From contig CATKHK010000087.1 in NCBI GenBank assembly GCA_949751835.1, positions 62,001-126,000 of the forward strand: 64,000 bases of DNA, read 5' to 3'. This document shows, piece by piece, positions 18,272 to 35,907 of the stretch. Within the stretch, counting starts at the first letter, position 1. Each line of letters opens with the position of its first letter. Both the position numbers and the translations under genes were made by a program. This DNA comes from Blepharisma japonicum (taxonomy: Eukaryota; Ciliophora; Heterotrichea; Heterotrichida; Blepharismidae). Below the pieces are notes generated by a model, which did not search any database, was not told where the DNA came from, and saw nothing but the letters and a program-made list of their open reading frames with translations.

Positions 18272-20698
18272 ATGTCTGCCAGAAAATTTGCTGATGAAGA
18301 ATCAGATCAAGAGTCTTCTAATGACGAAGAAGATCGCAAAAAAGCAGTTTTCCGTAGACAGTGGTTTGAGGACAGTTCAGACGAGGAAGAAGACAAAAGA
18401 GTAGTTCGATCTCAAAAGGACAAAAGATGGGAAGCATTAGCCACACATTGTAAAACCATCAAAAACAAGCTAAGGATCCAAGATTACGTATCGATTTTCT
18501 CTGAATGGGAAGAATTAGCTAAGCAGATACAAAAATCTCAAAATATTATTGAGTCTGCTGGTCTTCCAATCTTCTTTGTCCGCACTTTAGTGCGTCTTGA
18601 AGATGCCATCTCAAACGTCACAAAGGAAGCTCAAAAGAAAATGAGCACCACCAACTCCAAAGCTTACACCAAGCTTAAGCTAAACCTCAAAAAATACAAC
18701 AAAACCTATGAAGAAGACATCGCAAAATTCCGAGCCAACCCTGAAGAATCAGAAGAATCCGAAGAAAGCGAAGAATCTGAAGAAAGCGAAGAAGAAAAAG
18801 CCAAAGAAAGCGAAAGCGAAGAAAGCGAAGAATGGGGCTCTGGAAGTGACGAAGAAAGCGAAGAAGGAGAAAGAGACCTCTCAGACCCTACCAGCCGCAG
18901 AGCATTCTGGACTATCAAGCAGCCAAAAGAAGGTGCTGAAGAAAAAAAAGAAAAACCTGTAGAAAAACCTCAAGAAAGACCAAGGCCTAGAGTAGTCGAA
19001 GAAGTCAAAAAAGAAGAAGTAAAAATTGAATATACCCCTGATGTTATATCAGCAAAACTTAAAGAACTTATGGATATCAGAGGAAGAAAAGCTGTAAACC
19101 CTAAAGAACAAATTGAACATTTAAAGACCTTGCTGAGCCATTGTGAAAACACTGACTTAAGGATTCAAATTTTGCAGCTGATTGTGAGACATGAATTTGA
19201 TTTGACGAAAAATACAGTTTTGGTCATTATGCCGAGGGAATTGTGGCTTTCTACTATAAACCACCTTAATAGCTTGCTTAATATTTTTAGCCCTGTGAAA
19301 GAAGATTTGAAGGATGACCTTGATGATATCAAAAAGTCGATAATTCAGGGATTGGCACATAGTGCAGATAGGCTCCATGATGAGCTACAAAAAGCTTTGA
19401 AATTGGCTGATCCACAAACGACAGAATATATTGAAAGGCTTGGAGACCATCTGGCACTGGATAAGGTTGTAAGAAGAATTTACAAATTTTATGAAAAGTT
19501 AGAAGACTTTGAAAATGTCGCGAAAATGGCATTAATCCTTATGGAAGAATTTTACTATGTCCATAAAAACATTTTAGAACAAATGAAGAAAAAATACACA
19601 GGGACTGAAAAGGATCTATATTTCCAATGTGAGGATTCTGAAGCTGAATTTTCAAGACTGTCGGACTTAGTGATCACTCATGGAGACGCAAAGCAAAAAG
19701 TAGCAGCTGCTTTAATGCAGGCTTACAGGCTAGCTTTACATTCTAATTTCACTGATGCTAAAAATCTATTCTTAAAAACAGATTTCAATGAAAAAGTCTT
19801 ATCAGAGCCAAGCATCCAAGTCCTCTATAACAGAACACTAGTTCAAATCGGCCTTTCTGCATTCTACAGTGGGCTTATTGAAGCTTCATTTACAATCCTC
19901 AACGAAATTGTGTCAACCCACAGACTTAAAGACCTCCTCGCACAAACAATTTCAGCAGCCAAAGAAAAAACAGCACAACAAGAGCGTGATGAAAGAAAAA
20001 GACTTGTTCCATACCATATGCATATCAGGACAGATTTAGTCGAAACTGCTTATTTTATATGTGCAATGATCATTGATATTCCTAAAATTGCACAAAATCC
20101 ATATGATGCAGACCAGCTTACCATTAGTAAATATTTCAAAAGATTATTAGATTATCATGAAAGGCTAGCTTTATCTGGACCAGCTGAAGGGCTTAGAGAT
20201 TACATTTTAGAAGCTGCTTTAGAATTAAGAAAAGGCAAATGGAAAGAATCTATTCAGCAGCTTAATAAGCTTGATAGCTGGAAATGGATGCCAGAACATG
20301 AAAATGTAAAAAGCAGGATTTTTTCACGTGTAAAAGAAAGCGCATTGATTACTTATATTTTGACTTATGGAGATAATTATGAGTCTTTCAGCAAAACTCA
20401 GCTTTCAAAGAAGTTTGACTTATCTGAGGACGAGATCGTTAATATTATTACCAATGCAATTTCTAATAGTGGATTACAAGCAGGATGGGAAGGAGAGGTC
20501 TTAACTCTTCATTTTAATAAGCAGCAAGAAACAGAGTACTTAGCCGAGCAAATTAAGGAAAAAGCAAAAGAACTAAAAGATATCAATGAAAAATTGCAAG
20601 AGTTCCAAGGATTTATAACTCAAGCGACCCAAGAAATGACGGTGAGGAAGCAGCAACAGCCTACAATTAAGAAAAAGAAAGTTTTTAGTGGAAAATAA
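18272..20698 (+). CDS. EIF3C: Translation initiation factor eIF3 subunit C
   Basis: 808 residues in one uninterrupted frame. eIF3c is a core scaffold of the eIF3 complex that loads the 43S ribosome and contacts eIF1 and eIF5. The N-terminus has the typical acidic start, EDRKKAVFRRQWFEDSSDEE, followed by the helical N-terminal domain. A low-complexity Ser/Glu tract at about residues 154-205 is built from repeated SEE units. The C-terminal half has the family motifs RTDLVETAYFICAMIIDIP and LEAALELRKGKWKESI and a PCI/winged-helix region (TYILTYGDNYESFS ... LSKKFDLSEDEIVNIITNAI). A basic end (KKKKVFSGK) follows. There are no introns and no TGA codons, unlike its neighbours. Identity is firm. Confidence 0.95.
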   Translation: MSARKFADEESDQESSNDEEDRKKAVFRRQWFEDSSDEEEDKRVVRSQKDKRWEALATHCKTIKNKLRIQDYVSIFSEWEELAKQIQKSQNIIESAGLPIFFVRTLVRLEDAISNVTKEAQKKMSTTNSKAYTKLKLNLKKYNKTYEEDIAKFRANPEESEESEESEESEESEEEKAKESESEESEEWGSGSDEESEEGERDLSDPTSRRAFWTIKQPKEGAEEKKEKPVEKPQERPRPRVVEEVKKEEVKIEYTPDVISAKLKELMDIRGRKAVNPKEQIEHLKTLLSHCENTDLRIQILQLIVRHEFDLTKNTVLVIMPRELWLSTINHLNSLLNIFSPVKEDLKDDLDDIKKSIIQGLAHSADRLHDELQKALKLADPQTTEYIERLGDHLALDKVVRRIYKFYEKLEDFENVAKMALILMEEFYYVHKNILEQMKKKYTGTEKDLYFQCEDSEAEFSRLSDLVITHGDAKQKVAAALMQAYRLALHSNFTDAKNLFLKTDFNEKVLSEPSIQVLYNRTLVQIGLSAFYSGLIEASFTILNEIVSTHRLKDLLAQTISAAKEKTAQQERDERKRLVPYHMHIRTDLVETAYFICAMIIDIPKIAQNPYDADQLTISKYFKRLLDYHERLALSGPAEGLRDYILEAALELRKGKWKESIQQLNKLDSWKWMPEHENVKSRIFSRVKESALITYILTYGDNYESFSKTQLSKKFDLSEDEIVNIITNAISNSGLQAGWEGEVLTLHFNKQQETEYLAEQIKEKAKELKDINEKLQEFQGFITQATQEMTVRKQQQPTIKKKKVFSGK

Positions 20699-21328: not shown

Positions 21329-23638
21329 TTAATAGAACCATGGGTTTAGTTTGATATCCTCTAAATAGTCTCCATGTATGCTTTTACCAACTACATAAGC
21401 CAGCTTGTGAGCCATCATAGTAGGTGCTGGCACTTTAACTCCTCCATTCCAGTTGTAGTACATGTAGCATAGCTTGAATGCAAGTTTTGCATAAGTCATC
21501 ACGTCTGTTTCCTTTACAGGGCAGGTGTTTTCAATAACTCTGTACAGAGTTGGAGATGCCATGCCTTGAGTGACTGAGTGGGAGATCAAATAGAAGGAAC
21601 TAGGATCTGGAACTACTACAGAGTTCACAACAGTCCCTGGCAATGGATTGCCTATCCCTCTATTAGATGGAGTAAAGAGCTTCGCATTAGTCTTTTTGTT
21701 CACTATAATATAAGTAAAATTTGGGTGATAATTTTCAAAGCTATCTATAACTTTTTTCATTCCTTCTACCTCATATTGTCTTACGGCATCTATTTGGGAA
21801 TCTGCAACGCCATCTCTATACACAATGATATGCTCAGGCATAAACCTTCTTTTAGTGTTTTCAAAGAAAGCTATAAGCGCTTCTCTTAGACAGACGCTTA
21901 CAGAGATTGCAATCTCCTGTCCTTTTTTATCTTGTATTTTTATAGTGTTATAATACTGAGTAAATTTTGGATGTATAGATGCTACAAAACCAACAACACT
22001 TTGCGATTTATCTACAGAATCATGGAAAACATCGACTCCAATTACCATTGTTTTATCTAAGAGTTTTTCTGTAGGTTCAAGTGCCCACAGATAAGATCCA
22101 GTCTTAGCAGCAATTTGGAGTGCCACTTTAGACATGATGGAGTCAAATCTTTTAGGGTTTCTTACGCTATTTCCCATTACGACCTGTATTGGAATACCTG
22201 ATCTCAAGCAAGAAGCTTCTTTTATTTCATGATATCTGTCTCTCATGTTACCTGGCAATAGAACGACACCAATTGTAGGAGCTGGGCGATTATCTGGGGG
22301 TCTATTGAGAGCGCTAACTAAGGTTGGTAGGGAATTAGGATTATAGATAAGCTGATAAGGAGCGCCCATATCAATGCCTATTTGTCGGGCCTTATTTTGA
22401 AGAGCTTTAACTAGCTTTTCTCTGTCTTCTCGATCATTTTCTATAGAAAGTACAGCCCAATGATCAATTTTTGAAGAGTAATAAAGATTTCCTCTGAGAT
22501 TAAACGCGCCTTTATCATCTAGGTCAATTAATTGGTTCCCACCAATTTTGATTTTTTCCATAGGCATTCTGATTGCATCAACTGTGATAGGCTCTGGATT
22601 AACCTCTAAGGAAAATTTGCTTAATTTATGCTCTTTTAGTCTGTTAGCTAATGCTATACTGGTATTTAAGCGGTCTTGAGGCTGCAATCTTGTATATGTA
22701 CCTATAGAACTCATAACTCTGTAATCGCTTCTCATTTCATCTGAAATCCCAGTCAGTCTGCAAAGCTCAGGAATTAGCTTTATTATGATTTTTTCATCTC
22801 TCCTTTTTATTGTTGTAAGAATAAGAGGCTGCCTCAGATCTTTTATTTCTATTTTATGTTTATTTCTGTAGTAATCTTGATAAGAGATTGGCCCTTCTGC
22901 TCCTTGAAAAACCGAAGTCGGATTTTCTTCTACGTCAATTCCATCAATTCTATAGCAGGCAAAGTTTCCATAGCTTGCCATTACTATAAGTCCTTTCATT
23001 TGGCTTTCCAATATCTGGACTAGATTTCTTGAGCGGCGAGCTTGGATTTCTTTTATCAAATTAAGAGCAGTCATATTGCGAATAATTTTGCTTGCAAAAT
23101 CTAGGTTTAGAATCATTTGGTCATAGTGATGGGCAAAAGCAGCAGTGTATCCCCTTCATACTTCAAGGTTGTGGTCTGGAACTTGGCAAGTTTGTGATCT
23201 ATCATAATATTTAGGTAGCCGAGTCACTTGCAATAGACCTAGCTTTTTCAGCATTAGTTTAAGGGCGACGTTAGAGTACATCTTATACTGCTCAGGCTTG
23301 AAGTTGTCTATTGTACCAACGAAACGGATGCTTAGAATGTACTCAATGTTTTCGAATCCTGTCGCAATAGCTATAAAAGGTTCTAGATTTTGCTTAAATG
23401 CTACAATGTTGGTCCCTAATTTTATAAATTTCCCTATATTCGCTTCGATGATATCTTTGGCCCCTCTGATTAGTTTATCTCTAAGACTTCTATTGCTATC
23501 CTCGACATCAGGGGTAAACTCTATGAAATAAAGTCCAACATTCCCAGCTAGATTGCGGTCGAGCCTAAAAAAATTGGTAGTTATTTGGATTGGTCTGCCT
23601 AGAGAAACGGCGCTGCTTTGCTTTAAAGCTGGCTCCAT
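21329..23638 (-). CDS. PIWI: PIWI-clade Argonaute, array copy 1
   Basis: 769 residues, with TGA-Trp at 23156-23158 (residue 161, LEV-W-RGYTAAF). The order is N domain, PAZ (about 180-300, with the Piwi signature KLIPELCRLTGISDEMR), MID (YHEIKEASCLRSGIPIQVV) and PIWI. The slicer tetrad is intact: Asp in VIGVDVFHD, Glu in KKGQEIA, Asp in VYRDGVADSQ and His in PAPTMMAHKLAY. It ends in WFY, as Argonautes usually end in aromatic residues. It lacks a few residues in the linker after PAZ (RLKEHKLSKFSL) that copies 2-4 have. It is the outermost copy, next to eIF3c, and the most divergent in the N-terminal half, yet nearly identical to copy 2 in part of the 3' coding end. A small-RNA guide role is known for the family; the pathway is inferred. 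Confidence 0.95.
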
Positions 23639-23680
23639 ATATTTATTATCTTATTTAATGCTGTCCTTTAAATAAGGGAT

Positions 23681-23712
23681 TTTTCGGGAATATGCCATTT
23701 ATAGATGTCTAC
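23681..23712 (-). promoter_or_regulatory. Piwi-array upstream motif, copy 1
   Basis: On the plus strand TTTTCGGGAATATGCCATTT followed by ATAGATGT, starting 43 nt upstream of the ATG. The same block precedes copies 2 and 3 at similar distance. It is more GC-containing than its surroundings. It could be a promoter or 5' UTR element. Confidence 0.55.
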
Positions 23713-24454
23713 AAAATTATAATATGAATTATGATTTTCAATCTTATTTAGTACTTGAATTTGACGTTGATAATATGGCAAATAGGAAATTTTTGCAATT
23801 AGGCCAATTATCAATTAAATTAGTCATATATGGTATAAGTTTTTTTTATTTTTAATGACTTCTCTAATCTCCAAAAGAGTAAAATAAAATAAGTAATGCT
23901 TTCAGTTTATTAGCTATTTAATGTGAGAAGTTGAAATCAATTATTTTAATAGTGCCCCAGATGCTTTAGAAAAATTTAACTTAAAGGTTAAGAGAGTGAT
24001 ATAATTCAAATTAATTTATAAATACTTCCCCTATTATTAATGATATAATTCATTCAAGTATATTTTAATAGGCATCACTTAAATTTATCAGTAATAAAAT
24101 AGCTTTAATTTAATTTTGGCATGTAATAATTACTTTTATACAAGTTTTTTAATTTAACTTAAAAATAGATCTTACTGCCCACACTCTTTTTAGCGAAAAG
24201 TATGGAAAATCCCAATTTTTAGAAGATTAAAACACGTTTTATATTTTTAAATATAATTATCGATTATAATAATATTAACTTACTATTTGAAAATTTTGCT
24301 AAAAGCTCCTCGAAAAGAAAGAACTTACTTATTACTTACGCTTAATATAGGCTAAATATTAATCGTTAGATGATTTGTGATCTCTATATCCTCAGGGTTT
24401 TCAAGTGATTTTTAGAAATCCTTTGATACCTTTTAATATTTGTCAAAATATAGA

Positions 24455-24694
24455 ATGAATGAAGAAGAATTCGAGAAGATAAAGCCATCTTGCGAGTAAA
24501 TAATTTCTGCGATGCTATCCATAGTTCTCCGACTTATTGGTTTCATGTTAGTTAGTCTGAATGATCTGATTGAACTGAACACAAATAACCCATTAATTTA
24601 TTTATTGGCAAAATATAGAAACTATCTTTTGTTCGAAATAGAAAGAATTTATCGAAAACGAATCCAAGAGCAGTTATTTAAACTAATTTTTTAA
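24455..24694 (+). other. Possible decayed or unspliced small open frame
   Basis: ATG at 24455 opens MNEEEFEKIKPSCE, then a TAA at 24497, then the same frame continues from an ATG at 24512 for 60 residues (NDLIELNTNNPLIYLL, then a basic helical end EIERIYRKRIQEQ). The stretch is less AT-biased than its surroundings. No GT...AG of 15 or 16 nt removes the TAA, so it is either a chance frame or a host-gene remnant. The product is not recognised. Confidence 0.25.
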
Positions 24695-25177
24695 CATTTT
24701 CTTATTAGAGATTCTGGATCTGGAGTAATAAAATTACAAAGACTATTTCATTACTAAGATTGTTTACTAAAATTAGAGATTCTCTAAAAATATTTTGCCC
24801 TTTACATATCCTTGAAACTATTATAATATTTAAGACATCTTGATTATTCGAAACAGAATTGAAAAAGTAGCATATATACGATAGTGATATTCAAAATTGA
24901 TGATATTAGCATTTTTAAATAGCAAGTCTTTGATTTATTTATAAAATAACAAAAAACTTCATTTTACAGATACTCATTTATATTTACTAAAATAATGCTA
25001 TAAAATTATTAAATATATTAATTTTAAGTCATTTTTTAATATTCTTTTCATAAAACAATCACATTCATACTAGAAAGCACACTAGATTTAATTTTATAAA
25101 AGAATTCTCTAATGCTCGGAATAGCATAGATTTCATTCTAACTAAATTAAGCTAAATAATCGTCATTATTTAGGTCC

Positions 25178-27496
25178 TTAATAAAACCATGGCTTTAACT
25201 TGATAGATTCTAAATAATCATCATGGACACTTTGACCGACGACATAAGCCAGCTTGTGAGCCATCATGGTAGGTGCTGGCACTTTAATTCCTCCGCTCCA
25301 GTTGTAGTACATGTAGCATAATTTGAAAGCAAGTTTTGCATAAGTCATCACATCTGTTTCCCTTACAGGGCAGGTGTTTTCAATAACTCTGTACAGAGTT
25401 GGAGATGCCATGCCTTGAGTGACTGAGTGAGCAATTAAATAGAAGGAATTAGGATCTGGAACTACTACAGAGTTCACAACAGTCCCTGGCAATGGATTGC
25501 CTATCCCTCTATTAGATGGAGCAAAGAGTTTCGCATTAGTTTTTTTGTTCACTATAATATAAGTGAAATTTGGATGATAATTTTCAAAGCTATCTATAAC
25601 TTTTTTCATTCCTTCCACCTCATATTGTCTGACGGTATCTATTTGGGAGTTTGCAACGCCATCTCTATACACAATAATGTGCTCAGGCATAAACCTTCTT
25701 TTAGTATTTTCAAAGAAGGCTATAAGTGCTTCTCTTAGACAGCCGCTTACTGAGGATGCAATCTCTTGTCCACTCTTTGGTTGCAGCTTTACACTGTTAT
25801 AGTACTGAGTAAAAGCTGGATGGATAGATGCTACAAACCCTACAACACTTGTCTTCTTTTTAACAGTGTCATGGAAAACATCTATTCCAATGACCATTGT
25901 TTTCAATAGCAGGTTTTCTGTAGGTGTAAGTGCCCATAGTTGTGATCCAGTTTTTGCAGCAATTTGAAGTATCAATTTGGACATGATTGAGTCAAATTTT
26001 TTCGGGTTTCTCACGCTATTTCCCATTACAACTTGGGTAGGGATGCCTGATCTCAAGCAAGATGCTTCTTTTATTTCATGATATCTATCTATCATATTTC
26101 CTGGCAATAGAATAACGCCTATTTGAGGAACTGGGCGACCACCTGGAGGTCTGTTCAAAGCACTGACTAAGTTTGCTAATGATTTAGGATTATAGTCAAT
26201 CTGATAAGGAGTTCCCATAGTGACACCTATTTTTTGAGCTTTATTTTGTAGAGTTTTTACTAGCTTATCTCTGTCCTCTTGATCTCTTTGTGTAGAAAGC
26301 ACAGCCCAAGTATCAATATTGACAGATGCAAAGATGCTTCCATTGAGGTTAAATCCACCTCTATTATCTAGATCAATTGATTGATCTCCACCAATTTTGA
26401 TTTTTTCCATGGGCAGTCTTATTGCATCAACTGTAATAGGCTGTGGGTTAATTCCTAAGGAGAATTTGTTTACAATTTGAGCTGCATTTGCTCCAAGATT
26501 ATTCGTTAATTCTAAGCTTTTATTAAGACGTTCTTGTGGTTGTAGTCTCGTATGTATAGCTATATCTCTCATGACATTAAAATCAGCTCTCATTTCGTCT
26601 GAAAGTCCAGTCAACCTACATAGCTCAGGAATTAGCTTTATTGTTATTTCTTCATCTCTTCGTTTTACTTTTGTAAGGATTAGAGGCTGTCTCAGATCCT
26701 TTATTTTTATTTTATGATTTTGTAAATAGTAATTTTGATAAGATATTGGCCCTTCTGCTCCATGGAAATCGGAAGTTGGGTTTTCTCTAGTGTCAATCCC
26801 ATCAATCTTATAGCATGTATAGTTTCCATAGCTCGCCATTACTATAAGCCCTTTCATTCTATCTTCAAATGCTTGGACTAGATCTCTTGGACGGCTGGCT
26901 TGAATTTCTCTTATCATGTCCAGAGCAGTTATATTTCGAATAATCTTACTTGCAAAGTCTACGTTTAGTAGCATTTGGTCGAAGTGATGACCAAAAACCG
27001 CTGTGTATCCTCTTCATACTTCAAGATTGTAATCTGGGACTTCGCAGACTTGAGATCTATCATAATATTTAGGCAGCCGGGTTATTTGCAATAGACCAAG
27101 GTTTTTCAGCATTTCCTTAAGAGCAACGTTAGCGTACATTTTATACGCCTCAGGCCTTGTGCTATCTATTGTTCCAACAATACGAATGTTTAGAGTATAC
27201 TCAATGTCTTCGAACCCTGTTGCAAATGCTGTAAAAGGTTCTTGCTTTTGCCTAAAAGCTACAATGTTAGTGCCTAGTTTCATAAATTTCCCTATCTGTG
27301 CTTCGATAGCATCTCTGGCTCCTCTGATTAGTTTGTCCGTTAGGCCACGATTGCTATCCTCAACTACAGGTGAAAACTCTATGAAATAGAGCCCTACATT
27401 CCCTGCAGGAGTGCGGTTTAGCCTGAAAAAATTGGTAATGATTTGGATTGGCCTCGTTTGAGAAGCAGTTGTACTTTTTCTCGGAGCTGGCTCCAT
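25178..27496 (-). CDS. PIWI: PIWI-clade Argonaute, array copy 2
   Basis: 772 residues with TGA-Trp at 27014-27016 (residue 161). N, PAZ, MID and PIWI domains are in the usual order, and the DEDH tetrad is intact (VIGIDVFHD, KSGQEIA, VYRDGVANSQ, PAPTMMAHKLAY). The ASQTRPIQI start and the linker NLGANAAQIVNKFSLG are shared with copy 3, its closest relative. One substitution next to the third catalytic Asp (DGVAN, versus DGVAD in the other three) sits just outside the tetrad. Start ATG 27496 aligns with the other copies (MEPA). Its 5' flank (27500-27900) is homologous to that of copy 3, showing that the duplication included flanking DNA. Confidence 0.95.
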
Positions 27497-28150
27497 TTAT
27501 TTATATTTTGCCATTTTTCTTAAATCATAGATGTTTCGGGAATATACCATTTTTACAGATATTTATATAATTTTATAGAATTTTGATAAGTCTTCCTTTA
27601 TTTGACTTGCCAATAATAACCAGGCTACTTTTAGGCTATTTATCAAAAGAAATAGTTACTATTCACAAATTTTTGATTTTATTAATTATTCTTTTAATCC
27701 AAAAATTATGCTTTCAATTAACAATTTTTAAGTATTCTTGCTCTCCAATAATCCATAATGCATTTTTGCTTGATTCAAATAGCGTAGGTAAAGGTTAAAA
27801 TAATTTAAATCTAAAAATTTATGAATTGCCATTAGAAAATAAATTTAATACAAAAAGTAATTATTGAACTAATATACTGAAAATTTTATCTAAAATCTAT
27901 TGCTCTTTTTATTCTGGATATTTTTATATCATTTATGTATTTGGTTGACAATTAGCATATATGTATGGTTTGATATTTAAAAAACTGATATCTGTTTACA
28001 ATTGTAGATAGTAGACTACTGAGTAATTACAAAGCTATAGGAATAGTTATCTTATGAAGTCTAATATATCTTTATTTAAAAATTGCAAAGATAAGCATAT
28101 AATTTAATAATTTAACATTTTTAAATAAATAATCGCCATTATTTAGGTTT
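27497..28150. other. Piwi array spacer 2
   Basis: 654 nt, AT-rich, between copies 2 and 3. Its copy-2-proximal part (about 27640-27900) resembles 30650-30900 in spacer 3, and its copy-3-proximal part (about 27905-28140) resembles 31590-31820. The spacer is therefore a duplicated non-coding unit. No gene was seen. Confidence 0.7.
27533..27570 (-). promoter_or_regulatory. Piwi-array upstream motif, copy 2
   Basis: On the plus strand GTTTCGGGAATATACCATTT followed by TTACAGATATTTATATAA, 37 nt upstream of the ATG. It matches copies 1 and 3 over about 35 positions although the surrounding spacer has diverged. Confidence 0.55.
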
Positions 28151-30469
28151 TTAATAAAACCATGGTTTTAACTTGATAGATTCTAAATAATCTTCATGGA
28201 CACTTTGACCGACGACATAAGCCAACTTGTGAGCCATCATAGTAGGTGCTGGGACTTTAATTCCTCCGCTCCAGTTGTAGTACATGTAGCACAGCTTGAA
28301 TGCAAGTTTTGCATAAGTCATCACATCTGTTTCCCTTACAGGGCAGGTGTTTTCAATAACTCTGTACAGAGTTGGAGATGCCATGCCTTGAGTGACTGAG
28401 TGGGCAATTAAATAGAAGGAATTAGGATCTGGAACTACTACAGAATTCACAACAGTCCCTGGCAATGGATTGACTATTCCTCTATTAGATGGAGCAAAGA
28501 GTTTTGCATTAGTTTTTTTGTTCACTATGATATAGGTGAAATTTGGGTTGTAATTTTCAAAACTACTGATGATATTTTTCATTCCTTGTACCTCATATTG
28601 TCTTACGGCATCTATTTGGGAGTCGGCAACGCCATCTCTATACACAATAATGTGCTCAGGCATAAACCTTCTTTTAGTATTTTCAAAAAAGGCTGTAAGC
28701 GCTTCTCCTAAACAGCTACTTACTGAGGTTGCAATCTCTTGCCCACTCTTTGGTTGCAGCTTTACACTGTTATAGTACTGAGTAAAAGCTGGATGGATAG
28801 ATGCTACAAACCCTACAACACTTGTCTTCATTTTAACAGTGTCATGAAAAACATCTATTCCAACGACCATTGTTTTCAATAGCAGGTTTTCAGTAGGTGC
28901 AAGCGCCCATAATTGTGATCCAGTTTTCGCAGCAATTTGAAGTATCAATTTGGACATGATTGAGTCAAATCTTTTCGGGTTTCTCACGCTATTTCCCATT
29001 ACAACTTGTATAGGGATGCCTGATGTCAAGCAAGAAGCTTCTTTTATTTCATGATACCTATCTATCATATTTCCTGGTAATAGAATAACGCCTATTTGAG
29101 GGGCTGGGTGACCCCCTGGAGGTCTGTTCAAAGTCCTAACTAAGTTTGCTAATGATTTAGGATTATAGTCAAGCTGGTAAGGAGCTCCCATAGTGACACC
29201 TATTTGTCGAGCTTTATTTTGTAGAGTTTTTACTAGCTTATCTCTGTCCTCTTGATCTCTTTGTGTAGAAAGCACAGCCCAAGTATCAATATCGACAGAT
29301 GCCAGGATGCTTCCCCTGAGGTTAAATCCTCCTCTATCATCTAGGTCAATTGATTGTTTACCACCAATTGTGATTTTTTCCATAGGCAGTCTTATTGCAT
29401 CAACTGTAATAGGCTGAGGGTTAATTCCTAAGGAGAATTTGTTTACAATTTGAGCTGCATTTGCTCCCAGATTATTCGTTAATTCTATGCTTTTATTAAG
29501 ACGTTCTTGTGGCTGTAGTCTCGTATGTATAGCTATATCGCTCATGACTCTAAAATCAGCTCTCATTTCGTCTGAAAGTCCAGTCAACCTACATAGCTCA
29601 GGAATTAGTTTTATTGTTATTTCTTCATCTCTCCATTTTACTTTTGTAAGGATTAGAGGTTGTCCCAGATTTTTTATTTTTATACTATGCTTTTGTAAAT
29701 AATAGTCTTTATAAGTAATTGGCCCTCCTTGCCCATTGAAATCTGAAGTGGGATTTTCTTCAATATCAATCCCATCAATTCTATAGCATTTATAGTTTGC
29801 ATAGCTCGCCATTACTATAAGCCCTTTCATTCGATTTTCCAATGCTTGGGCTAGATTTCTTGGATGGGTGACTTGAATTTCTTCTATCATGTCTAGAGCA
29901 GTCATATTGCGGATAATTTTACTCGCAAAATCTACATTTAGTAGCATTTGGTCATAGTGATGACCAAAAGCGGCTGTGTATCCACTTCATACTTCAAGAT
30001 TATGGTTTAAGACATGACCTATATTTGATCGATCATAATATTTAGGTAGTCGGGTTATTTGCAACAGACCAAGATTTTTCAGCATTTGCTTAAGGGCAAC
30101 ATTAGCGTACATTTTATACGCCTCAGGCTTTGTGTTATCTATTGTTCCAACAAGATGAACGTTAAGAGTATACTCAATGTCTTCGAACCCTGTTGCAAAT
30201 GCTGTAAAAGGTTCTAGCTTTTTCCTAAAAGCTACAATGTTAGTGCCTAGTTTCAGAAATTCCCCTATCTGTGCTTCGATAGCATCTTTGGCTCCTCTAA
30301 TTAGTTTGCCCCGAAGGCTACGATTGCTATCCTCAACTACAGGGTCAAATTCTATGAAATAGAGCCCAACATTTCCAGTAGGAGTGCGGTTTAGCCTAAA
30401 AAAATTGGTAGTGATTTGGATTGGCCTCATTTGAGAAACAGCAGTTCTTTGTCTTGAAGCTGGCTCCAT
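28151..30469 (-). CDS. PIWI: PIWI-clade Argonaute, array copy 3
   Basis: 772 residues with TGA-Trp at 29987-29989. Domain order and the DEDH tetrad are intact (VVGIDVFHD, KSGQEIA, VYRDGVADSQ, PAPTMMAHKLAY). It is the sister of copy 2, with the same length and the same NLGANAAQIVNK linker. Copy-specific changes cluster in the N domain and PAZ (for example IQVTHPRNLAQAL and the ending SNIGHVLNHNLEV before Trp161), where guide 3'-end contacts lie, and at NRGIVNP near the C-terminus where the others have NRGIGNP. That pattern would fit specialisation in guide binding with retained slicing, but this is inference from sequence alone. Confidence 0.95.
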
Positions 30470-31829
30470 ATAGTTATATATTTACTTAATTTTTAAATCG
30501 GAGATTTTTCGGGAATATATCATTTTTATAGATATTTATATGATTTTAAAATGAAATTAGAATTTTGGATAATAAAGTGTAAGCCTTTCTCTATTTGACT
30601 TGCCAATAATAATCAAGTTACTTTTTATTTTATTTATTAACCAAATAGCAATTATGACTTGCAAATTTTTGATTTTTAATAATTTTCTCTTTCTTTCAAT
30701 GCAAAAATTAAAATATGCTTTAAATTAACATTTTTTAAGTATTCTTGATCCCCAATAATGCATAATGCATTTGTGTTTATTCTATATGTGAAAGTTATGT
30801 TTGAATAATCTAAATGGAAAAATTAATGAACTGTATTTATAGAAAACAAATTTAAAACAAAAAGTATTTATTGAACTAATATACTGAAATATATTACTGT
30901 TGAAGAATAAATTTTTATATCTGCACTTATAATTAAAGAGTCTAAACAAATATATCGAAGAATGTTAATTTATCAAGAGGAGTTGAAATCATTCCTTGCT
31001 ATGATTTAAGGTTTAAGCAAAATTATAAAATTTTAGTAAGATTGAAAAGAATTAAGTATATTTTAATTACTCTATGTCCTTAAACAGGTGATATGGCAAT
31101 TCTGCTAAGCGCTTACATTATTATTTATTACTAATAGTTTAAATCCTATATCGGATATTTTTTATATACTGACATTCCTAATTGACATTTTAGCTCGAAA
31201 AATAGATTGGAAAGCTTTGAAAAGTTATAAGTATGGATCATTGACTGGTTTCTTAATCTGTGCTAAAGATCCTTTGAAATGAATTTAGAAATAATTTGGC
31301 TTTTACATGTCTTTTAAGATATTACTAAATTATTTCAATATAGTTTTATATATTCTAATTAGAGTTATTTGAAAATAAACTCCAGAGTAGGATAATAATT
31401 TGATAAATTTTGAAATTATGATATTTTTACTATTTATAAACTCTGTGATAATTAAGCAGAATAATAATTTCATTATTATGGATTGCCTTAAAAATAAATA
31501 ATAGCTTTATTTACAGCATTATTCAAAATTTTACTATATTTTTTATTGAACTTGCCTGATTCTTTATAAAAATTTATCAAAAACATTTTGTTCTTTTTAT
31601 TTCTTGATACTATTATATCATTTATGTATTTTAATTGACAACTAGCATATCTGCATGATTTTATGTCCAAAAAACTAATATTTGCTTAGTAGATTACTGA
31701 GTCATTTACAAAACTCTAGAAATAACTATCTTATGAAAGCTAATATATCTTTATACAAAAAGCGCAAAGATAAGTATATAATTTTATATTTTACGCTTTT
31801 TTAATAAATAATTATTCTTATTTAGGTTT
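30470..31829. other. Piwi array spacer 3
   Basis: 1.36 kb, AT-rich. The first 430 nt resemble spacer 2 next to copy 2, and the last 240 nt resemble spacer 2 next to copy 3. The middle (about 30900-31550) has no counterpart that I can see, so it is either an insertion here or a loss in spacer 2. No gene or element ends were recognised. Confidence 0.65.
30504..30540 (-). promoter_or_regulatory. Piwi-array upstream motif, copy 3
   Basis: On the plus strand ATTTTTCGGGAATATATCAT followed by TTTTATAGATATTTATA, 35 nt upstream of the ATG. It is the third instance of the shared block. Confidence 0.55.
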
Positions 31830-34145
31830 TTAATAAAACCATGGTTGTAACTTGATAGATTGTAAATAGTCTTCATGGACGCTTTGACCGACTATATAAG
31901 CCAGCTTGTGAGCCATCATGGTAGGTGCTGGGACTTTAATTCCGCCACTCCAGTTATAGTACATGTAGCACAGCTTGAATGCAAGTTTTGCATAAGTCAT
32001 CACATCTGTTTCCCTGACAGGACAGGTGCTTTCAATAACTCTATATAGAGTTGGAGATGCCATACCTTGAGTGACTGAGTGGGCAATTAAATAGAAGGAA
32101 TTAGGGTCTGGAACTACTACAGAATTTACAACAGTTCCTGGCAATGGATTTCCTATTCCTCTATTAGATGGAGCATAGAGCTTTGCATTAGTTTTTTTGT
32201 TCACTATGATATAAGTAAAGTTCGGGTGATAATTTTCAAAGCTAGCTATAACATGTTTCATTCCTTGTACCTCGAATAGTCTGACAGCATCTATTTGGGA
32301 GTCTGCGACGCCATCTCTGTATACAATGATGTGCTCAGGCATAAATCTTTTTTTCGTATTGTCAAAGAAGGCTATCAGCGCTTCTCTTAGACAGCCGCTC
32401 ACAGAGGATGCAATCTCTTGTCCACTTTTAGCCTGCAACTTTACACTGTTATAGTATTGAGTAAAAGCAGGATGGACAGATGCTACAAACCCTACAACAC
32501 TTTGTGCCTTTTTCACAGTATCATGGAAAACATCAATTCCAATGACCATTGTTTTCATTAAGAGGTTTTCTGTAGGTGCAAGTGCCCATAGATGAGATCC
32601 AGTCTTAGCAGCAATTTGAAGTACCAACTTAGACATGATTGAGTCAAATCTTTTCGGGTTTCTCACGCTATTTCCCATTACTACTTGTGTAGGGATGCCT
32701 GATGATAAGCAAGAAGCTTCTTTTATTTCATGATATCTGTCTCTCATGTTGCCTGGCAATAAAACAACACCGATTTGAGGAGCTGGACGGCCACCTGGAG
32801 GTCTGTTGAGAGCGCTAACTAAAGTTGGCAGTGATTTAGGATTATAGTCAAGCTGATAAGGAGCTCCCATAGTGACACCTATTTGCCTAGCTTTATTTTG
32901 AAGAGTTTTCACTAGTTTGTCTCTGTCTTCTTGGTCTCTTTGAGTTGAAAGCACAGCCCAAGTATCAATATTTACAGGCGTTAGGATACTTCCTTTGAGA
33001 TTAAATCCACCTTTATCATCTAAGTCAATTGACTGATTTCCACCAACTTTGATTCTTTCCATAGGAAGCCTTATAGCGTCAACTGTAATTGGCTCTGGGT
33101 TGATTCCTAAGGAGAATTTATTTGTGATTGCAGAAACTTCTCTACCTCCTAATCTGTTTGCTACGGTTTGACTTGTAGTCAGACGTTCTTGTGGTTGTAG
33201 CCTAGTATATACAGCTATATCGCTCATAACCCTAAAGTCGCTTCTCATTTCATCTGAAATCCCAGTTAGCCGACAAAGCTCAGGAATTAGCTTTATTTGC
33301 TTCAACCCTCTGTTAATCGTTGTTATAATTAAAGGCTGCCTCATATCCTTTATGTTGACATTCTGCTTGGTTTTGTAGTAATTTTTATACGAAATTGGTC
33401 CTTCTCTGCCTTGGAAAGTTGAATTGGGATTTTCTTGCGTGTCAATACCTTCAATTCTGTAGCACTGGTAGTTTCCATAGCTTGCCATTACAATGAGCCC
33501 ATTCATATTGTTCTCTAGAGCTTGGGTTAGGTTTCTTGGACCACTTGCTTCAATTTCTCTTATCATGTCTAAAGCAGTCATGTGACGAATAATCTTGCTT
33601 GCAAAGTCTAAGTTTAGAAGCATTTGATCATAGTGGTGGGCAAAAGCGGCAGTGTAACCTCTCCATACTTCAAGCTGGTGAGCTGGAACTTGGCATGTTT
33701 GAGTCCTATCGTAATATTTAGGGAGACGGGTTACTTGTAGCAGATGAAGCTCTTTCAGCATTTTCTTAAGGATTACGTTTGAATACATCTTATAAGCCTC
33801 AGGTTTTGAGTTATCAATTGTCCCAACGAGACGAACATTTAATGTATAATCTTCTTCTTCAAATCCTTTAGCAAATGCTGAAAAAGGTTCTGGCTTTATC
33901 CTCATGGCTGCGATGTTGGTTCCTAATTTCATAAATTCACCTATCTGTGCTTCGATGGCATCTTTGGCACCTCTGATTAACGTGTCACGAAGACTTCGAT
34001 TGTTATCCTCGACATCAGGTGTGAACTCTATGAAATAGAGCCCAACATTCCCAGCTGGAGTACGGTTCAGCCTGAAAAAGTTGGTCACGATCTGGATTGG
34101 CCTGCTTTGAGAAGCAGCACTTCTTTGTCTTGAAGCTGGCTCCAT
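31830..34145 (-). CDS. PIWI: PIWI-clade Argonaute, array copy 4
   Basis: 771 residues in a single uninterrupted frame because residue 161 is encoded TGG (33663-33665), where copies 1-3 use TGA. Domains: N (1-170), PAZ (about 180-300), MID (about 440-500) and PIWI (about 530-771). The tetrad residues are Asp538 (GIDVFHD), Glu577 (KSGQEIA), Asp611 (VYRDGVADSQ) and His746 (PTMMAHKLAY). MID has YHEIKEASCLSSGIPTQVV, which holds the guide 5'-phosphate pocket. The post-PAZ linker reads RLGGREVSAITNKFSLG. Its upstream region faces NMD3 divergently. It is the most complete reference for annotating the other copies. Confidence 0.96.
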   Translation of the reverse strand: MEPASRQRSAASQSRPIQIVTNFFRLNRTPAGNVGLYFIEFTPDVEDNNRSLRDTLIRGAKDAIEAQIGEFMKLGTNIAAMRIKPEPFSAFAKGFEEEDYTLNVRLVGTIDNSKPEAYKMYSNVILKKMLKELHLLQVTRLPKYYDRTQTCQVPAHQLEVWRGYTAAFAHHYDQMLLNLDFASKIIRHMTALDMIREIEASGPRNLTQALENNMNGLIVMASYGNYQCYRIEGIDTQENPNSTFQGREGPISYKNYYKTKQNVNIKDMRQPLIITTINRGLKQIKLIPELCRLTGISDEMRSDFRVMSDIAVYTRLQPQERLTTSQTVANRLGGREVSAITNKFSLGINPEPITVDAIRLPMERIKVGGNQSIDLDDKGGFNLKGSILTPVNIDTWAVLSTQRDQEDRDKLVKTLQNKARQIGVTMGAPYQLDYNPKSLPTLVSALNRPPGGRPAPQIGVVLLPGNMRDRYHEIKEASCLSSGIPTQVVMGNSVRNPKRFDSIMSKLVLQIAAKTGSHLWALAPTENLLMKTMVIGIDVFHDTVKKAQSVVGFVASVHPAFTQYYNSVKLQAKSGQEIASSVSGCLREALIAFFDNTKKRFMPEHIIVYRDGVADSQIDAVRLFEVQGMKHVIASFENYHPNFTYIIVNKKTNAKLYAPSNRGIGNPLPGTVVNSVVVPDPNSFYLIAHSVTQGMASPTLYRVIESTCPVRETDVMTYAKLAFKLCYMYYNWSGGIKVPAPTMMAHKLAYIVGQSVHEDYLQSIKLQPWFY

Positions 34146-34578: not shown

Positions 34579-35907
34579 ATGGAATCTGTTCAAGTCAAGT
34601 GCTGTCTTTGTGGACTTTCAATGACCTACAGTCAAGCCAAAATGTGTATGAACTGTTTATCTCATACGGCAACCATCACAGATGCAATAGACAAAGAACA
34701 AACCCTCGAAATTTGCCGATATTGTGACCGATATAATCGGCCTCCTTGATTACCAGCGAAGCTTGAAAGTCCTGAGCTTTTACAAATTTGCTTATCACGT
34801 ATAAAAGGGTTATCTAAAGTAAAGCTCATAGATGCTGCTTTTGTGTGAACTGAGGAGCATTCAAGAAGGATTAAAGTAAGGCTAACAATACAAAGAGAGG
34901 TAGAAAACACTATGCTAGAGCAGCAATGCTTGGTAAATTTTGTAGTTAATGATACGCAATGTGAAGACTGTCAGAGATCATTTACTCCGCACCAATGGAT
35001 GGCAAAGGTGCAGCTGAGGCAAAAAGTGAATCACAAAAGGACAATTTATTATCTTGAGCAAATTATATTAAAAAATCATTATCAAAAAGACTGCTTAGGT
35101 GTAAAACCTAAGAAAAATGGCATAGATTTTCATTTTGGAACTAAAGCACACGCACAAAAATTCATCGATTATATCCACTCAGCAGTCCCACTTCAAACAA
35201 AAATGTCCAAAGAATTGATTTCTTCTGACCCTAAATCAAACACATATAATTACAAATTTACTTTTTTGGCTGAAATTATTCCTATTTGCAGAGATGATTT
35301 ATTAGTCCTGCCTAAGTCCCAAAGAATTCCTGGTCTTGGCCGTGTAGTCATGTGCTATAAGCTTGCAAGCTTAATTCGTGTATTAGATATAAGGAATTTC
35401 AGGACTGGAGAAATAAAATCAGATAGGTACTGGAAGCAGCCTTTCCAAGTCTATGCAGGCAGAGAATGACTTGAAGAGTTCATTGTTTTAGACATTGATG
35501 AACGCTCAGAAATGCATCAAGACGAGCCAAATCGATTAAAAACGGTAGAGGTAGAAGTAGCAAGATCTAATGATGCCAGATTTGGAGAAACTACGTATAG
35601 GGTGAAAACACATCTGGGGAATATTTTGAGGTCTGGGGATACAGTGCTTGGGTATAATCTAGAAAACATGGTAGGCCATGGACTTGAGACTGAAAGCTTT
35701 GATGACTGTCCACAAGTAGTTTTAGTCAAAAAAATCATACCAAAAGAAGAAAAGCAGAAGCCAAAAATCAAAATCGAAAGGATAGCTGAAGTAGAAGAAG
35801 AGCCTGATTTTGGAGAATTTTTAGAAGAAGTAGAAAATGATCCTGAGCTCCAAAGTCAAATTTTAGGTGATCCTGCTACACAACCGACAGAAATTCAGTT
35901 AAAATAA
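34579..35907 (+). CDS. NMD3: 60S ribosomal export protein NMD3
   Basis: 442 residues with TGA-Trp codons at 34747, 34846 and 35467. NMD3 is the adapter that binds the 60S subunit at its joining face and recruits the exportin Crm1. The ATG at 34579 gives the family N-terminus with zinc-binding Cys pairs CCLCGLSMTYSQAKMCMNCL, CRYCDRYNRPPWLP and CEDCQRSFTPHQW. Next come the eIF5A-like and SH3-like parts (HFGTKAHAQKFIDYIHSAVP, SNTYNYKFTFLAEIIPICRDDL, RYWKQPFQVYAGREWLEEF). The tail is acidic and shorter than in animals; a Leu-rich export signal is not obvious (FGEFLEEVENDPELQSQIL is the best candidate). Identity is firm. Confidence 0.95.

Follow-up and report, generated by a model that had tools for sequence, protein, structure and literature searches.

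Four Piwi genes lie head to tail on the minus strand of a 64,000-nucleotide (nt) stretch of contig CATKHK010000087.1 (contig C87 below) from the heterotrich ciliate Blepharisma japonicum, the whole of which is called the window here. These genes, W1 to W4, have outer bounds at 21329 and 34145 and encode PIWI-clade Argonaute proteins of 769–772 residues with an intact catalytic site (Table 1). The copies are kept by purifying selection. The explanation that is preferred, with slightly better than even confidence, is that the four genes form a dosage set: the slicers would be largely interchangeable, apart from a single regulatory split between W1–W3 and W4. This is favored over specialization of each copy for its own class of guide RNA, which is discussed in a subsequent paragraph.

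Membership in the PIWI clade is supported by protein domains and by comparison with solved structures. The Pfam PAZ (91–97 bits) and Piwi (221–227 bits) models are matched over cut-off and in order in 4/4 copies, while matches to the linker and MID models in W1–W4 are all below cut-off. W4 scores 297–373 bits against 11 long PIWI chains, including PIWIL1 (9s0z, 373 bits) and sponge Piwi-A (7kx7, 371 bits), versus 164 bits for HrAgo1 and at most 129 bits for eukaryotic AGO-clade chains. For the three proteins compared (W4 and the products of the dispersed Piwi genes C17 and C18), the score of the best PIWI chain is about 2.5–3.4 times that of the best eukaryotic AGO chain. The matches to PIWIL1, Piwi-A and Siwi (5guh), which we take to be animal proteins, cover nearly the full N-PAZ-MID-PIWI length (329–373 bits). 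In contrast to these chains, W1–W4 are about 770 residues long and lack a long N-terminal tail. The catalytic residues D538, E577, D611 and H746 (W4 numbering) are invariant in W1–W4. A preliminary description, made from the letters of the window, had listed four tandem, minus-strand PIWI-clade genes of about 770 residues with Asp-Glu-Asp-His preserved, and the open reading frames (ORFs), Pfam domains and alignment bear this out.

The residues presumed to contact the guide RNA are likewise uniform. Y471, K475, Q487, K506, Q510 and K514, which from known structures we take to be the guide 5′-phosphate pocket, are identical in W1–W4, and the same six amino acids (Y, K, Q, K, Q, K) are present in 12/12 Piwis of the genome. 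The PAZ pair Y256/Y257, presumably a second guide contact as judged from known structures, is identical in W1–W4 as well. Since the guide-contact residues that were checked are the same in all four proteins, the earlier proposal that the copies load different small RNAs is possible but unsupported: nothing was found in its favor among the 5′-phosphate pocket and PAZ positions, which give no prediction of different guides per copy. AlphaFold2, run on the four window proteins only, produced an unusable model (mean predicted local distance difference test score 34.7; predicted template modeling score 0.28).

The genome encodes at least 12 Piwis, the same set being returned by searches with the Piwi domain, the PAZ domain and the W4 protein, and all are single open frames of 763–789 codons when TGA is read through. 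Amino acid identity to W4 is 82% for W3, 81% for W2 and 79% for W1, followed by the dispersed C26 (68%), C7 (59%), C6 (54%), C13 (47%), C17 (32%), C18 (30%), C37 (29%) and C2 (29%). In a maximum-likelihood tree of the 12 proteins, W1–W4 form one clade (97/99) with the order (W4,(W1,(W2,W3))). Thus, the grouping of the four, on which the preliminary description had made its case depend, stands for the whole protein; in half-protein trees of eight proteins it is also seen in residues 1–369 (73/78). The closest pair is W2/W3, as described previously, with equal length, 87.8% amino acid identity and a post-PAZ linker that is 96% identical, whereas the other five pairs are 78–82% identical.

The ages of the duplications and the selection acting on the copies were estimated from Nei–Gojobori counts. 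Silent divergence (dS) is 0.21 for W2/W3, versus 0.60–0.77 overall for the other five pairs, with values up to 1.5 in PAZ; therefore, the W2/W3 duplication is fairly young and the others are old. The locus had been called recently expanding, which is true of W2/W3 only. The ratio of replacement to silent divergence (dN/dS) is 0.14–0.29 across all six pairs, and for each domain of each array pair it stays under 1. Because the pairwise ratios are this low, no copy looks like a pseudogene and all are under purifying selection.

Residue differences among the array copies are concentrated in the N-terminal half, comprising the N and PAZ regions, as had been noted earlier: 17–28% of residues differ in 1–369 versus 8–18% in 370–771, and 248 columns are variable in all. 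This contrast is in part ordinary, as the same half is the faster one family-wide. Here, the region from N to linker 2 changes faster than MID-PIWI in 14/14 pairs, with ratios of 1.5–2.7 in the six array pairs and 1.07–1.71 in eight outgroup pairs. The contrast is also in part a by-product, because the 3′ end of the PIWI region is low in silent divergence. The highest domain value of dN/dS in the array is that of the W2/W3 PAZ (0.55). When replacement and silent codons are compared between PAZ and PIWI, p is 0.003–0.006 for W2/W3, W2/W4 and W3/W4 and 0.10–0.11 for the three W1 pairs, these values being uncorrected for six tests. PAZ is likewise the replacement-rich part in the three comparisons among C26, C7 and W4.

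Silent divergence at the 3′ end was measured as third-position differences at codons for the same amino acid, in residues 575–771 relative to elsewhere. The ratio is 0.45 for W1/W2 (p = 5e-6), 0.60 for W1/W3 (p = 0.001), 0.70 for W1/W4 (p = 0.015), 0.64 for W3/W4 (p = 0.004) and 0.74 for W2/W4, so that it is lowered in 5/6 pairs altogether. The controls show no significant drop: dispersed C2/C37 is at 1.03, the four pairs of a W gene with C26 at 1.06–1.14 (close to silent saturation), C26/C7 at 0.92, C2/C18 at 0.88, C37/C18 at 0.89, W4/C7 at 0.88 and W4/C6 at 1.22. Across the four copies, 59/157 columns are silently variable in 575–771 versus 180/342 elsewhere, a value as low being reached in 16 of 20,000 permutations. 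In addition, the DNA tree shifts from W2+W3 in residues 1–369 (100/99) to W1+W2 in 575–771 (70/79). A scan for sites of the W1W2 type gives low values at windows of 10 and 15 (14 and 40 of 5000), though not at 20 (303/5000). Because silent sites are depleted relative to controls and the tree shifts, if weakly, partial gene conversion is suggested, which has probably homogenized the catalytic C-terminal ends in part.

The proposed regulatory split comes from the DNA just upstream of the genes. The sequence TTCCCGAAA precedes the start codons of W1, W2 and W3 by 52, 46 and 46 nt, respectively, and the ATG of the dispersed Piwi gene C6 by 56 nt. The element is thus present in 4/12 Piwi genes, with C2 having CCCGAAA alone 44 nt upstream; it is absent within 200 nt upstream of W4, C26, C7, C13, C17, C18 and C37. 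Among the 32 window ORFs of at least 200 residues (both strands, spurious ones kept), CCCGAAA is found within 200 nt upstream of W1–W3 only. The claim concerns position only, the choice of sites is post hoc and genes with short first exons would escape notice. A proximal element common to W1–W3 and lacking from W4 argues for shared, not split, expression of those three copies.

If the copies are largely interchangeable, the following scheme would apply. Tandem duplication in a heterotrich ciliate would have produced four PIWI-clade Argonaute slicers. In each of these, as the conserved residues predict, the MID pocket would bind a 5′-phosphorylated small RNA, PAZ would hold its 3′ end and the Asp-Glu-Asp-His site would cut complementary RNA. 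Purifying selection maintains the copies, gene conversion would keep the C-terminal catalytic ends partly homogenized, and N and PAZ would drift apart as the faster half, as elsewhere in the Piwi family. W1–W3 would be driven by the common proximal element and W4 by another promoter; the element is observed and the regulation is predicted from it.

Several results weigh against this scheme. In the W2/W3 PAZ, 26 replacement versus 11 silent codons are found, as compared with 15 versus 25 in PIWI (p = 0.006, uncorrected), and this excess could also be seen in a copy that is specializing. The silent drop in W2/W4 reaches p = 0.059 only, and W2/W3 has none (1.18). The control pairs with C26, being nearly saturated, reveal rate differences only roughly. 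Support for the shifted W1+W2 branch is weak, and a Sawyer-type runs test on polymorphic third positions is below 0.05 in 0/6 pairs (smallest 362/5000); an adjacency test is not significant either (1949/5000). The array clade itself is not recovered when the MID-PIWI half (residues 370–771, the same eight proteins) is used alone.

Which pathway the array would serve is a question separate from whether its members are interchangeable. Ciliate Piwis serve both silencing by small interfering RNA (siRNA) and DNA elimination guided by scan RNA (scnRNA) (PMC8059543, PMC5666084, PMC11724296). The four genes could be the scnRNA effectors of genome editing, expressed at conjugation and directed by 24-nt guides to germline-limited DNA. 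This is a serious possibility, if short of an even one, and is compatible with the dosage explanation. In Blepharisma stoltei, the Piwi gene BSTOLATCC_MAC5406 is reported to be strongly induced in conjugation, ranking in the top 100 of the genes that rise at 26 h, together with a Dicer-like gene (PMC9942806), and 24-nt small RNAs with a 5′ U are described as development-specific (PMC9942856). The genome analyzed here also encodes PiggyBac transposases, and paired RNase III domains occur in five of its genes. Against this role, MAC5406 may correspond to any one of the 12 Piwis, and neither TATTCCCGAAA nor the bipartite form TTCCCGAAA-N4-9-ATTTA has a site, judged by position, near the five paired RNase III genes, the three RNA-dependent RNA polymerase (RdRP) genes or the three strongest PiggyBac genes.

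Specialization by guide class, where each copy has a small-RNA class or stage of its own and N and PAZ are the parts that confer specificity, is considered rather unlikely. It has precedent, as the close Paramecium paralogs Ptiwi01/09 and Ptiwi12/15 of one subgroup are reported to carry 25-nt scnRNA and 23-nt siRNA, respectively (PMC8059543), and B. stoltei is described as having both 22-nt and 24-nt small RNAs (PMC9942856). N and PAZ are the parts that differ most, with relatively many replacements in the W2/W3 PAZ, which such specialization would accommodate. However, the four proteins do not differ at any of the pocket residues checked, the faster pace of the N-to-linker-2 region extends to the outgroups, and no domain of any array pair has a dN/dS as high as 1.

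The upstream element also occurs at helicase genes. On contig C3, it is found 48–57 nt before the ATG in 4/5 tandem SEN1-like helicases, including one gene with a further site at 82 nt. The four element-bearing genes encode AAA_11 and AAA_12 domains, and SEN1 is the best relative of the one compared with solved structures. At two UvrD-type genes on contig C13, where the TATTCCCGAAA form is present, the element precedes the first ATG by 48 and 23 nt. In total, 8/29 sites of TATTCCCGAAA are close upstream of a long ORF, no more than about 60 nt from its first ATG; these are the sites of W1–W3, three of the C3 helicases and the two C13 genes. A ninth, at L039 (G000:C90:35901-38311), is 19 nt upstream of the first ATG in a frame of 397 codons that is seemingly no helicase. 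The sites at L032, L033 and L034 are inside frames running far upstream; these and most of the remaining ones are probably coding. Judged by site position, a site just upstream is found only on C3 among 17 AAA_12 matches over cut-off, the upstream DNA of the others being unread; one match on contig C1 has a site 1.9 kb upstream of its domain, but this site is within a long open frame.

The element was also considered as a general promoter word, and this was rejected for lack of genome-wide enrichment in the forms searched, namely TATTCCCGAAA (29 sites versus 55 in the reversed control), the bipartite form (11 versus 14) and a looser 15-mer with two mismatches (156 versus 164, background level); these forms leave out the 9-mer TTCCCGAAA alone. 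Separately, a second tandem group of AAA_12 helicases, with four matches over cut-off and one fragment, spans about 12 kb at G000:C10:133357-145544 and has no site of the first two forms. The link between Piwis and helicases is a post hoc lead from at most four independent loci: the W array, C6, the C3 array and the C13 pair. It would be explained by a co-regulated RNA-silencing module, in which W1–W3, C6, the SEN1-like array and the UvrD-type pair would all be under the control of a single element, TTCCCGAAA, which is some 50 nt ahead of the start codon and in many cases has ATTTA after it, the slicer ends being kept uniform by gene conversion as N and PAZ diverge. Such a module is doubtful; were it real, it could be an inducible RNA-based defense or a conjugation-stage unit.

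The remaining explanations leave less room. Tandem duplicates arise easily, and W2/W3 is fairly young, so extra copies might be decaying by-products of unequal crossing-over without a selected role; this is already disfavored and very unlikely, as no copy has a frameshift or nonsense codon (with TGA as Trp), the catalytic residues are intact and dN/dS is 0.14–0.29. An assembly artefact, with haplotypes or collapsed repeats placed in tandem, has no point in its favor and is hardly credible given that the coding DNA of the copies differs by 9–20% and that the spacers are unlike in length and content. Read in gene sense, the first 271 nt of the W3-W2 spacer correspond to the beginning of the W4-W3 spacer (77%) and its last 385 nt to the end (75%; matched end about 385–420 nt), and the W4-W3 spacer consists of these same two ends with about 680 nt extra between them. 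Upstream of W1 and W4, the common sequence is limited to short proximal pieces. The likeness within the array is not due to chance, because the reported E-values are 0 and the flanks of some units are included in the duplication.

Parts of this picture are known from other systems. Many-copy PIWI-clade Argonautes are likewise found in Paramecium (Ptiwi) and Tetrahymena (Twi), where scnRNA and siRNA roles are known (PMC8059543, PMC11724296, PMC5666084). Tetrahymena Twi11p is described as lacking the slicer core (PMC5666084), whereas all four array copies keep it. In the heterotrich Stentor coeruleus, the Sciwi proteins are all placed in the PIWI subfamily and reported with an Asp-Asp-His (DDH) triad, and no tandem array is mentioned in the available text (PMC4019465). 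For B. stoltei, whose lineage is described as the earliest-diverging among sequenced ciliates (PMC9942856), the available text names one Piwi, MAC5406, and the array may already be in its supplement (PMC9942806). Conjugation RNA-seq of this species has been published (ERR6049461-ERR6049485; PMC9942806), and RNA interference by feeding is mentioned for B. japonicum (PMC4019465). Up to five tandem Argonaute genes are reported in another protist, Phytophthora; these are of the AGO clade, with key PIWI residues less conserved than those of MID (PMC6284064), whereas in the present array PIWI is better conserved than any other part and also shows the greatest silent similarity. Thus, many-copy ciliate Piwis, DDH heterotrich Piwis (PMC4019465) and tandem Argonautes (PMC6284064) were known already, as far as these sources go, while the four-gene array was not found in open-licence PMC text, supplements excluded. 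The surprising parts are the silent-site pattern and the element in common with helicase genes. The array bears on how heterotrich Piwis are split between vegetative RNA interference and genome editing, for which it offers copy-specific N/PAZ sites for mapping, a motif to mutate and a possible, partial signature of gene conversion.

Table 1. Positions of the Piwi array, its flanks and associated elements in the window, and of element-bearing helicase genes elsewhere in the genome.
Feature	Position	Strand	Remarks
W1, Piwi gene	21329..23638	-	769 aa, TGA=W; ORF, domains
W2, Piwi gene	25178..27496	-	772 aa, TGA=W; ORF, domains
W3, Piwi gene	28151..30469	-	772 aa, TGA=W; sister of W2; ORF, domains, tree
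W4, Piwi gene	31830..34145	-	771 aa, no TGA codon; first branch of array; ORF, domains, tree
Low-silent-divergence stretch, W1	21329..21922	-	Last 197 codons + stop (W4 residues 575-771)
Same stretch, W2	25178-25771	-	Counted back from stop
Same stretch, W3	28151-28744	-	Counted back from stop
Same stretch, W4	31830-32423	-	Counted back from stop
TATTCCCGAAA upstream of W1	23682..23692	-	TTCCCGAAA start 52 nt before ATG
TATTCCCGAAA upstream of W2	27534..27544	-	46 nt before ATG
TATTCCCGAAA upstream of W3	30507..30517	-	46 nt before ATG
In-frame TGA (Trp161), W1	23156..23158	-	
Same codon, W2	27014-27016	-	
Same codon, W3	29987-29989	-	
W3-W2 spacer	27497..28150	-	
W4-W3 spacer	30470..31829	-	
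eIF3c, flanking gene	18272..20698	+	Convergent with W1; array boundary
NMD3, flanking gene	34579..35907	+	Divergent from W4; three in-frame TGA; array boundary
Five tandem SEN1-like superfamily 1 helicases, contig C3	L047:1642-4296, L047:4529-7045, L048:2704-5745, L048:6706-9558, L048:3-2507	-	Last one cut by locus end
Two long UvrD-type helicase genes, contig C13	L049:2-4363, L050:3-4478	-	Alike by eye; weak TPR matches in L049 gene

The reading frames above depend on the genetic code. W1–W3 each have one in-frame TGA, at the same codon, and are split under translation table 11, being whole only when TGA encodes Trp. TGA as a stop, which would truncate W1–W3, was rejected: W4 has TGG at this site, and with TGA read as Trp, residue 161 is Trp in 11/12 Piwis and Tyr in C6. 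Further in-frame TGA codons in the flanking NMD3 and in other genes, including the PiggyBac transposase genes, also speak against it. The doubled telomere repeat CCCTAACA has 196 matches in the genome versus 0 in the reversed control, many of those listed being at contig ends; it was not found in the terminal 1500 bases at either end of contig C87, the first 1500 of contig C1 or the first 1000 of contig C2. TGA as Trp, CCCTAACA telomeres and the presence of PiggyBac genes are consistent with a Blepharisma-like macronuclear genome, the same three features being reported for B. stoltei (PMC9942806). The published B. stoltei assembly is 41 Mb in 64 contigs (PMC9942806, PMC9942856), as compared with 45.2 Mb in 224 contigs here. 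Further small-RNA machinery is found elsewhere in the genome, with the paired RNase III genes on contigs C20, C110, C76, C25 and C73 and the RdRP genes on contigs C6, C125 and C106. At the glutamate-finger position, the dispersed Piwis differ, with Asp in C2 (L010:2124-4463, + strand), Gln in C18 (L013:2127-4463, + strand) and Glu in C37, and the full tetrad is present in 10/12 Piwis as aligned. Possibly, C2 and C18 are altered as slicers; a shift of the alignment by one position there would also explain the difference.

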